Below are positions 17,101-60,432 of a stretch of DNA of 64,000 bases, one piece after another. Each line of letters starts with the position of its first letter. The stretch's first letter is position 1. A program made the position numbers and the translations under genes. The stretch covers positions 5,620,776 to 5,684,775 of the forward strand of contig JARUPZ010000010.1 of the NCBI GenBank assembly GCA_031213475.1, written 5' to 3'. This DNA is from Nereocystis luetkeana (taxonomy: Eukaryota; Sar; Phaeophyceae; Laminariales; Laminariaceae). The notes beneath the pieces were generated by a model, which saw only the letters and a list, made by a program, of their open reading frames with translations, ran no database searches and was not told the DNA's origin.

Positions 17101-20100
17101 TCCCTGTTTGACGGCCACGGGTACGGTAAAGCCGATCGATTGACTTGCTATCCCACCCCACGTGCGGTCGGACGTTCTGGGGTTCTCTCGACCGCCGCCG
17201 AGACCGCGAGAGCAAAACATTTGGAGGGGGGGGGGGGGGGGATCGAGCAAGAAATCGAAGAGCAGCGGGAAATCCTCAACGAACCGTGTACGCGATGAAA
17301 ATTAACGAATGTATTCTACCGGGATGGGGCGAGGGGGGGGGGGGGGGGGCGTACTCATTTGTTGCTTGCCGTAGTCATTTGACCATTGACCACGCATACC
17401 TTTCGAGACGGAGCACCGTTCCTACTCCTATTAGAGACACCTCCAACATTTGCGCGCTCACTACGTTGCATATAATACATAAAAACGTTTTGCCAATCTT
17501 ATTACCCCCTTCCTGTTTGGCCGCCTGTGGCCACCATCTATCTCCTAGGATACACCGGCGGGGGGGGGTGCACTCGATATGATGAATGGCCTTGGTCGTA
17601 TGACCTTAGACCCTCGCATCCCTATTCTTGCCGGGAAGGAGTATGTCGTGTTTTCACCGACCAGACAGACATTGCTGGCACCAAGCGCGAAGCGAAACTT
17701 GAGGCGTCCGGCGAGTCGCACGAAGGGTGACCTGTATCCTACCAAGAACCGCTTTTGAGACGGGCTTGCAAATGGATGACAGCATCAACAAGTTAAACTT
17801 AAATTCCGGTGTGGCCACTTCCAGAAATAGCAATGGGGGTACTATGTGCCTGCCTCGTGGGTGCCTTACCATGAACACTACCAGGTACGTGATACGATCA
17901 TTCCCCTTGCGCGGAGTAAAGCTTCTTCACCCCGCCCAAATGATCTAGCTCTAGCTCTATCATCAGCTCTGACCGACCGACCGACCGACCGACCGCCAAA
18001 AAAACAAACAAACAAACATACCGGTGCCGTGCTTGTCTAGCTCAAGTAGTTAGCGGCATGTTTCACAGTGCCGTTGCCAACCGACGCCAACCCGACCTAT
18101 ACGCAGTACGTGGGGGGAGGGGTGTACTCGTGGCGTGCTCGGTCGCCATCGTACCGAGGAGTGGGGGGGGGGGGGGAGACACCGACCTATCAATACGGCT
18201 TGTTCGCGGAGTCGCTCAGCATAAAGCCAAGAGCGAAAAAAAAAAACATACCCTGGTATCTGGCACATATACAAAGCACATGAACAGATCTATTCATAGG
18301 TTGCGCGTGCAAACAAAATAACACACACAAATATAAACGATATCCCCCCCCCCCCCCCCCCCGTCCTCCCTCCCTCCCCCCTCCCCCGTCCTACCTTTGG
18401 TCCCTGGTCAGTCCATGGGAACTCCCCCTCGAGAACAATGGAGTGCTCGTCCAAAAACTCGTTGATGCGTTTCAGAAGAGAGTCGCCGTGATTGGCCAGT
18501 TTCGCGTCGGCTGCGCGGACGGTGCAGGGTAGAGCCGACAGCAAAAGATGAAACGGCAGAGTAGCGGTGACGAAACGGCGACAGGCACGTGAAACCGTCA
18601 ACAGAAGAGAAAATGAGATGAAACGGCGCTGCAATGAAACGACAACATGAGAACATGAAACATCCGCAATAAGACGGCAATGAAACGGCAAACAGAAACA
18701 CGAAACCGCCGAGAGAGAAGGCGATGAAACATTAAACGGCAACAGCAACAGCAACAGGAACAAGAAGCCGTCAACATAAAATGCTACGCAATGACGACAG
18801 AAAAATGAAACCACCAGAACAAAAAACCCAAGCGAGATGTGGTACTGCAAAGGCAACAAAACGACTAATAAAACGGCACGAGAAACATGACACCGCCAAA
18901 ATAAAACAAAGGGCAATGAAGCAACGGATGAAACGGCGACGCAAGCATGAAACCGCCGAAAGAAAAGGCGCAAAAAGCGGCCATCAAAAAACCGAAACGG
19001 CAAATAAAAACGCCTCATGAAACCGCCAAACGACGCAAGGGGGGACATCAAGTACTCGGATGTATGATTACCAACAGGAAAAACAGACGGATGGTGTTGC
19101 GCGAAGCCAGAGAGCGGGAGGGGCGGTGATGGTGGGAGAGGGTGTACTCATGTCATGCATGGCCGTAGTCGTATGACCATAGACCCTCCTGCGCATCCCT
19201 ACAATACCGGGACGGAGCAAATCGGGTGTTCACCGACCAGACAGGCATTGCTTGCTCTCCAAGGGCAATACGGGGGGGGGGGGGGGGGGAAGCCACGCCA
19301 GGCTCACCGCGCCAGCTCCCGACGCAGCGAAGCTCCTCGCGCGTAGTGGGTACCTTGTGAATCAGCTCCAGCACCTGACGTTATTTCAAACCAACGTTAC
19401 AACCGCCGCCGTTCCAACCATCGTCACAACCGCTGTTTCGATTATCATCGTTCGTTTCGATTATTGTCGCTGCCACCATTCCTTCCAACCATCGTTTGTT
19501 ACAGTGGCCGTTTCAACCATCGTTCGTTTCGACCCTTGATACACAAATAATTTGTTGCAACCATCGTTCGTTTCGGCCACCGTTAATTTCTACCATATTC
19601 CGTTTCAACCACCGTGCGTTACAGCCGATGCCACCCGAGGATAGACGAATCAACGAGCGGGAGTGAACTAAGTCAACGCAATACACCCACATTTTTAAAG
19701 GGAGGAACTAAAACTTTAGAGCAGGAACATTGGACAAGATATTACAGACCAACAAGAAATATTCATTCAACAGACCGACATGTACACATGCTGGTACAAA
19801 TTAAAAATACCAACCGATAGTCTACACCACTGTCAGTACCAGCATCAGCAATAACATCAGCATCAGCAACATCACCTTAACAACAGCTGTTAACGAAGGC
19901 GCCAAGCTCTCGACCGTACTCACACATACTGACACAAAAAATATCACCATCGCCAGGTGTATCAGAGTTGCACCAGTGTATTTATAACTTCAATGTCAGT
20001 ATCAGATCATCAGCCTCGGCCTCAGCCTGGCCGTAAGAGCAAGCATCATCACAAGGATCGTCTCGACTGCCAATATCAGTATCAACGTCAAAATACCAAA

Positions 20101-59934: not shown

Positions 59935-60432
59935 GGGGGGGGGTACTCATGTCCTGCATGACCGTAAGGGTAGGACCGGGGGGCCGGGGGGTGTACTCAT
60001 GCCATGCGCGGCTGTAGTCGTATGATCAAGGGGAGGGTTAGGGGGGGGGATTGTGAATCTCAATCCAACTAAAAGGGGGTGGTACTCGATAGGAGAGATG
60101 TTCTCGACATCATGCATGACCCTAGTCGTATTACCGTAGACGCTCGCACCCCTATAATGCCGGGACGGAGCATGTCGGGTTTTCACCGACCAGGCAGACA
60201 TTGCTTGCACCAAGCGCGAAGAGACGCCCGGCGAGTCGCATGAAGGGTGAGCTGCATCCTGCCAAGAACCGCTTGTAGGGCGGACTAGCATATGGACAAC
60301 AGATTCAACTAATTTAATTTTCGGTGTAGCCACTTCCAGACACAGCAATGGGAGCACTATGAGACGGCCACTCGGGGTGCCTTGCCATGAACACTACGTA
60401 ATACGATAATTTCCCTTGTGCAGAGTAAAGGT
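59935..60432 (-). mobile_element. family A copies, clustered 3' ends
   Basis: Two short 3' stubs (59938-59972, 59985-60035) each begin with poly(G) and GTACTCATG. A longer copy (60073-60432) runs to TGCAGAGTAAAGG. Serial insertion at the same G/C tract is likely. Confidence 0.7.

Follow-up and report, generated by a model that had tools for sequence, protein, structure and literature searches.

Among described systems, the closest to the elements reported here is the ingi/RIME pair of trypanosomes, in which, as in our case, a LINE is accompanied by a non-autonomous partner of ~0.5 kb that shares both of its ends. RIME has the look of a LINE with its centre deleted, and the pair also resembles ours in its common 5′ signature and its relative site specificity. 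The ends described for ingi and RIME are adenosine-rich stretches, whereas ours are C-tracts, with no run of at least six As in any of 59 3′ flanks; the middle of our partner family, Family A, is unmatched in our LINE, and the descriptions of ingi/RIME that we consulted mention no C-tract target. Human Alu, a Pol III transcript derived from 7SL, lacks a LINE 5′ end, and LINE/SINE pairs of the UnaL2/UnaSINE1 type have a common 3′ block. The latter likewise consist of a LINE and a short partner, but the head of that partner is described as derived from an RNA gene (PMC2323293), whereas the 5′ end of Family A is LINE-like. The same source sets SINEs of such RNA-gene origin apart from RIME and NARTc, each of which arose from its LINE by deletion (PMC2323293). 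Human L1 and Alu are similar in that their homopolymer tail is reported to grow when the RT slips as target-primed reverse transcription begins, although A/T is involved there and C/G here (PMC3415434). Togen, a LINE specific for (TG)n microsatellites, likewise targets a simple repeat, but it is placed near NeSL, a clade whose endonuclease is restriction-like, whereas our LINE has an Exo_endo_phos domain and a homopolymer target (PMC4640811). Among the titles and abstracts listed by our searches of open-access literature, we found no poly(C)-tailed LINE and no element targeting C/G runs.

Here we describe such a LINE and its partner from a 64-kb stretch of Nereocystis luetkeana DNA (the window) and from the 465-Mb assembly (1,987 contigs) in which we searched for further copies. 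We propose, with a probability of roughly 0.6, that a LINE with a poly(C) tail, together with Family A as a partner sharing both of its ends, inserts at C/G tracts by target-primed reverse transcription.

The LINE (34083-type) is ~6 kb long. L042 (reverse strand), the longest copy fetched, measures ~6.05 kb from its 5′ start to the poly(C), a ~110-bp insert included, and its reading frames are broken by stops. Used as a query for further copies, it returned 20 loci, its own place among them (45 matches, 292 first-look candidates). The LINE starts with GG(A/C)TGGGTTGGCGTCGAGTGGCGACGACGC or a close form in all 13 loci for which the 5′ end was fetched; the start of L068 lies slightly inside this common start. 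Pfam searches recognized an endonuclease of the APE-like Exo_endo_phos superfamily (PF03372, E = 1.5e-6) in L042 and RVT_1 (E = 6e-26) in L039, and the endonuclease and RT domains were thus found on two different copies; the RT pieces of L042 gave no RVT_1 match, and a match to Exo_endo_phos_2 (E = 0.0016) fell below the cut-off. Compared with solved structures in the PDB, the RT matched R2 (1e-16) and L1 ORF2p (1e-10). With RT and endonuclease domains, and with 5′-truncated copies that retain a constant 3′ end, the element is a non-LTR retrotransposon. No relatives of it were confirmed in viral contigs. The first-pass annotation had suggested looking for a full-length LINE that would combine the 3′ end seen at 34083 with the type of RT encoded by a fragment at window position 1588. 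Copies of ~6 kb with this 3′ end do exist, but they carry a different RT, only 18% identical to the 1588 fragment over 128 aa and 36% over 39 aa; we therefore rejected the 1588-type RT as the driver, and by this comparison the fragment is a member of a different family.

Within the window, the LINE is represented by a 5′-truncated copy at 34050–34479 on the forward strand (start placed by eye), whose 3′ end at 34395–34462 is followed by C17 at 34463–34479 and whose 5′ side bears C14 at 34023–34036; its genome matches are 85–92% identical. The 3′ part of the LINE has six further matches, at 6140 (+), 10638 (−), 17551 (−), 22347 (−), 28997 (+) and 32799 (−). One of these belongs to another 5′-truncated copy (17333–17551, −), with a C17 tail at 17349–17333 that adjoins a Family A copy at its C9 tail, and four are 3′ stubs: ~70 nt at 6138–6213 (+), starting near GCTCCGTC after C7 and ending in a C-rich, interrupted tail; ~70 nt at 10567–10640 (−), flanked by C-runs on both sides; ~75 nt at 28994–29070 (+), with a C9 tract on its 5′ side at 28982–28990; and a diverged stub at 32727–32801 (−), with a C17 tract on its 5′ side at 32822–32806. 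The sixth match is a fragment that lacks the terminal part (22296–22347, −), and an internal LINE fragment, 83% identical, lies at 60863–60966 (−).

Several other features of this DNA were recorded alongside the LINE copies. An open frame at 5977–6684 (+) gives a weak SOUL match (E = 0.00056, below the cut-off); upstream of this match, the frame also extends across a LINE stub and sequence rich in C. Another, at 58515–59315 (−), encodes a GRF zinc finger (PF06839, E = 6e-15) as well as a stretch rich in Asn. A MITE-like element of ~100 bp, whose termini TTACGGGGG..ATAGTTAATAGGACC are inverted, contain C/G-runs and, by eye, adjoin a TA, lies at window positions 48320–48430, with one end at 24335–24365, and within L042 at ~1828–1938. 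Elsewhere in the genome, on G000:C2, LINE 3′ ends recur ~56.6 kb apart (near 8618264, 8674910 and 8731467); this spacing, together with the identical printed flanks of the first two (L126 and L127), suggests a tandem segmental duplication.

Family A is ~525 bp long. Its consensus was built from the 30 genome copies that best matched one window copy, and these 30 loci have a mean identity of 85%, short flanks included. The window contains 17 Family A stretches of at least 100 bp, one being the query itself, and five shorter ones. Two are near full length: 22364–22934 (−), between C12 on the 5′ side (22946–22935) and C11 on the 3′ side (22374–22364), and 51308–51837 (−), between C10 plus more Cs (51854–51838) and C13. 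The copy at 35190–35650 (+) lacks the first part of the element and has C11 on its 5′ side (35178–35188) and C8 near its 3′ end, while that at 45811–46305 (−) follows a C11 tract (46316–46306) lying behind an older Family A 3′ end (46368–46328). A 5′-truncated copy at 10794–11313 (+) is followed by a second, partial 3′ end and then C11GC12. Further 5′-truncated copies end in C12 (15328–15549, −), C13 (15053–15294, −) and C10 (30577–30776, −); the copy at 17560–18101 (−) ends in C9, and additional copies lie at 43688–44163 (+) and, diverged, at 60075–60430 (−). In many Family A copies the terminal block is doubled (ATCGAGTACATCTCTCCTATCGAGTACA), which looks like a second round of copying of the 3′ end around a C-tract that has since decayed. 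The C-tracts are mostly terminal and vary in length, but they are not universal, since neither 32157–32686 (−) nor 55062–55563 (−), the latter with only CCCC near its 3′ end, has a C-run of at least 6.

Genome-wide, allowing up to three mismatches (each backwards control returned 0), the LINE gave 5,951 3′ ends and 3,389 copies of the block that immediately precedes its last 65 nt; the counts for Family A were 16,672 at the 3′ end and 5,379 at the 5′ end. An excess of 3′ over 5′ ends is what 5′ truncation would be expected to give, and subfamily divergence can also shift such counts.

Alignment of the Family A consensus with a LINE copy supports the earlier proposal of a LINE and a non-autonomous partner with a common 3′ end. 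The two 3′ ends are 83% identical over 35 bp (E = 2e-4), and the core word GGGATGCG has 20 occurrences in the window where 2.3 would be expected; by both measures, the match exceeds chance. The original observation of homologous 3′ blocks followed by C-tracts is confirmed. The resemblance extends to the other end as well, which the first-pass annotation had not noticed: the consensus starts with CTATTTTATATAGGTTGGGTTGGCGTCGGTTGGCAACGACACTGTAAAACATGCC, the last 43 bp of which match the LINE 5′ end at 86% identity (E = 8e-10), and Family A therefore carries homologues of both LINE ends. It is not a plain internal deletion of this LINE, as its middle (~400 bp) has no significant match within L042. 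Moreover, exact matches to this LINE bearing the 3′ block in its Family A form numbered 0, compared with 790 for the LINE's own form as a positive control (the LINE form was also found in 21 of 127 loci, as a further positive control), which suggests that today's LINE may not drive Family A. Either the 3′ block of Family A has drifted or another LINE drives it. The second option would make the 34083-type LINE a cousin of a different, unseen LINE with its own 3′ form, an arrangement compatible with the insertion model proposed above. The 0-to-790 result and the unmatched middle speak for such a LINE, but both ends of Family A are homologous to those of the LINE at hand, and the two share the same kind of target and 3′ tract; we regard an unseen driver as possible but doubtful.

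The first-pass annotation had viewed Family A as a SINE that borrowed only the 3′ end of a LINE. An ordinary Pol III SINE with such a history would explain a length of ~0.5 kb, the lack of coding capacity noted in that annotation, the high copy number and the shared 3′ end. It would not be expected to share the LINE 5′ end, and signals for Pol III were not found: the consensus contains no A box (one mismatch allowed) and no B box (two allowed), and a T-run of at least 6 (6 to 22) is present in 30 of 30 copies. Such T-runs stop Pol III. A head derived from a tRNA or another RNA gene was likewise rejected, as neither a tRNA nor an Rfam match reaching the gathering score was found in the window. 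Family A thus has neither the RNA-gene-like head nor the A and B boxes of a Pol III SINE, nor is it free of internal T4, and we consider that origin very improbable. The T-runs, the missing boxes and the shared 5′ end together suggest that Family A resembles the RIME/ingi kind of element rather than a tRNA-type SINE. An HDV-like ribozyme at the 5′ end is known from L1Tc. A ribozyme of this type at the shared 5′ end was unsupported here: HDV was absent from the 11 covariance-model matches at E ≤ 1 in the three loci scanned, all of Family A, and by eye we saw no complementary strand for a P1 in the LINE 5′ end.

C-tracts lie at both junctions of these elements, on the strand of the element. The 5′ flank (40–50 bp upstream) contained a run of at least six Cs in 47 of 53 copies and a run of at least six Gs in 1 of 53, compared with ~4% for each among random 40-mers; the counts of C are lower bounds, because the fuzzy 5′ match absorbed some Cs. 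By class, such C-runs were present in 25/30 Family A copies, 12/13 LINEs reaching the 5′ end and 10/10 truncated LINEs, and the full-length L042/L063 had no C-run on the 5′ side. Among truncated copies without the LINE 5′ end, 22 of 25 had at least six Cs at the 5′ junction, the exceptions being L100, L122 and L123, with no such run close by. Because truncated copies start at LINE positions that have no C-run, the tract at the 5′ junction comes from the target. On the 3′ side, at least six Cs were found within 40 bp in 27/30 Family A copies, in 9/9 LINEs reaching the 5′ end with the 3′ end found (three of 12 full-length LINEs, L078, L079 and L083, were left out because our pattern missed the 3′ end in the fetched stretch), and in 39/40 sampled LINE ends, a non-random sample that takes exact matches from contigs C1 and C2 in listing order (the first 41 minus a known full-length copy). 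Genome-wide, 1,443 of 1,980 exact LINE 3′ ends were immediately followed by C5 or more.

Target site duplications (TSDs) containing letters other than C were called by script in a minority of copies, 10 of 70 distinct ones. In the first set they were called in 7 of 58 copies (L014, L025, L026, L073, L075, L039 and L040), against 56 of 3306 mismatched pairs, and in the truncated set in 5 of 25, against 6 of 600 mismatched pairs (adding L109, L116 and L117, with two copies in both sets). The other 60 gave no such call; inside C-tracts, TSDs cannot be told. Nine of the called TSDs are 11–31 bp long, C-run included, while that of L025 is doubtful because the TATT after its C-run is also the element's own start. 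By eye, TSDs were also recognized in L024, L065 and L068; at the end of the TSD of L068/L080 (~29 bp, by eye), the letters GGGTTGGCGTC coincide with the LINE 5′ end, which makes this a microhomology junction. Eight of the 10 called copies, L025 included, have a duplicated stretch that begins with the C-run, which would place the nick in or at the edge of the tract, its exact place being unreadable in a homopolymer.

The scarcity of TSDs with non-C letters could also be understood if breaks at unstable C/G tracts had been patched with LINE or Family A cDNA, independently of the endonuclease, and the tracts had later expanded as microsatellites. The abundance of C-tracts in the window (71 merged tracts with a length of at least 8 across 64 kb) and the preferred length of the stubs described below would fit such capture, but the strand bias of the 5′ flanks (47 copies with C-runs vs. 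one with a G-run), the TSDs of 11–31 bp in nine copies and the constant 3′ end would not, and we judge it improbable. As a separate observation, C/G runs of at least 8 in the window outnumber those of A/T (75 vs. 59), and the longest of them is also longer (24 vs. 14).

We next consider whether the C-tract is a tail or the target, since the first-pass annotation had named C-runs continuing beyond both edges of target duplications as the sign of a pre-existing tract. This sign was half present. Most TSD-bearing copies do have a C-run on both sides, so the tract is in part pre-existing target, and in L109 (target run of 16, 3′ run of 16), L026 (9 and 9) and L039 (21 and 20) the two runs agree within one base. 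Elements without any C tail, inserted so as to split or duplicate a target tract, would leave this picture, and would also account for the correlation between 5′ and 3′ run lengths in 31 truncated copies (r = 0.31), which target duplication alone would give. They would not account for the growth from 4 to 13 Cs in L073, from C7TC to C30 (pure C) in L040 or from C8 to C15 in L024 (TSD by eye), nor for the truncated copies as a group, in which the 3′ run exceeds the 5′ run in 21, falls short of it in 8 and equals it in 2 (p = 0.018; L092, an internal deletion, was excluded). The 3′ run is also the longer one in L075 (15 to 23) and, slightly, in L116 and L117 (24 to 26 in each). Across all 58 copies it is longer in 36, shorter in 19 and equal in 3 (p = 0.003, r = −0.03), although for Family A and full-length LINEs this comparison counts Cs that belong to the 5′ end of the element itself and can lengthen the 5′ run, and we therefore base the argument for a tail on the truncated copies. 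The tendency toward longer 3′ tracts, together with a target of only C4 in L073, indicates that a tail seems to be made too. We conclude that the C-tract is probably both pre-existing target and added tail, and that a purely pre-existing tract is unlikely. The longer 3′ runs fit a G-run primer annealing to Cs of the RNA with occasional slippage, as described for A-tails (PMC3415434), and they would also be compatible with later change of tract length.

The 40 sampled LINE 3′ ends, for which an upstream stretch of 550 bp (20 ends) or 150 bp (20 ends) was fetched, also showed where the copies stop. Twenty-two are truncated within the fetched stretch, 17 reach its edge, and L092 stands apart. The truncated lengths range from 42 to 162 nt (n = 22, with L126 and L127 both kept despite their identical printed flanks), nine of them falling at 63–68 nt and three at 106 nt. 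The main cluster begins near GGTGCTCCGTC, where homology with Family A also begins, and stubs of 63–68 nt consist of the shared 3′ module alone. RNAalifold predicted two hairpins in this module; in the second, the commonest pairs of the alignment are the same in the LINE and Family A, while the loop and bulges differ. Covariation among copies in the 3′ hairpin was not above that of shuffles, and single folds of the two 3′ ends were no stabler than shuffles (z = −0.46 and 0.43). The module of ~65 nt is a candidate for the element recognized by the RT. A preferred stop of the RT or a short template RNA would each give stubs of 63–68 nt.

Under target-primed reverse transcription, the reading we favor, the bottom (G) strand would be nicked inside or at the edge of a C-tract, and the resulting G-run primer would pair with C residues at the 3′ end of the RNA, which may itself end in poly(C). 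The RT would then copy upstream from the 3′ module of ~65 nt, and slippage together with extra Cs of the RNA would often leave a 3′ tract longer than that of the target. Family A would presumably be moved in trans by the same route. New tails would in turn serve as targets like other C-tracts and so give rise to stacked copies. In the window, 14 of the 71 merged C-tracts directly follow a LINE or Family A end and 57 do not, and 16 of 53 insertions sit in an earlier LINE or Family A tail; a preference for older tails over other C-tracts was therefore rejected (p = 0.21). Tails seem to serve as targets no differently from other C-tracts, and this would suffice to stack copies into trains such as the one in L039.

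A more far-reaching interpretation, which we put forward tentatively and hold at less than even odds, is that this LINE lineage has swapped A/T priming for C/G: its endonuclease would cut G-runs, its RNA would end in poly(C), and its tails would be fresh targets. The C-tracts of the genome would then largely be decayed landing pads of a self-seeding system that also amplifies a both-ends partner and 65-nt stubs of its recognition module. Related elements mostly end in runs of A, and in L1 the A tail of the RNA matches the T of the target strand. A counterpart built on C/G, on the scale of a genome, would, if true, suggest that tail and target change jointly, as a unit; it would also offer a natural experiment on how the target of a LINE endonuclease can change. 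The 65-nt stubs may represent the lower size limit of the RNA copied by an RT of this kind, and part of this genome's load of C/G homopolymers would be explained.
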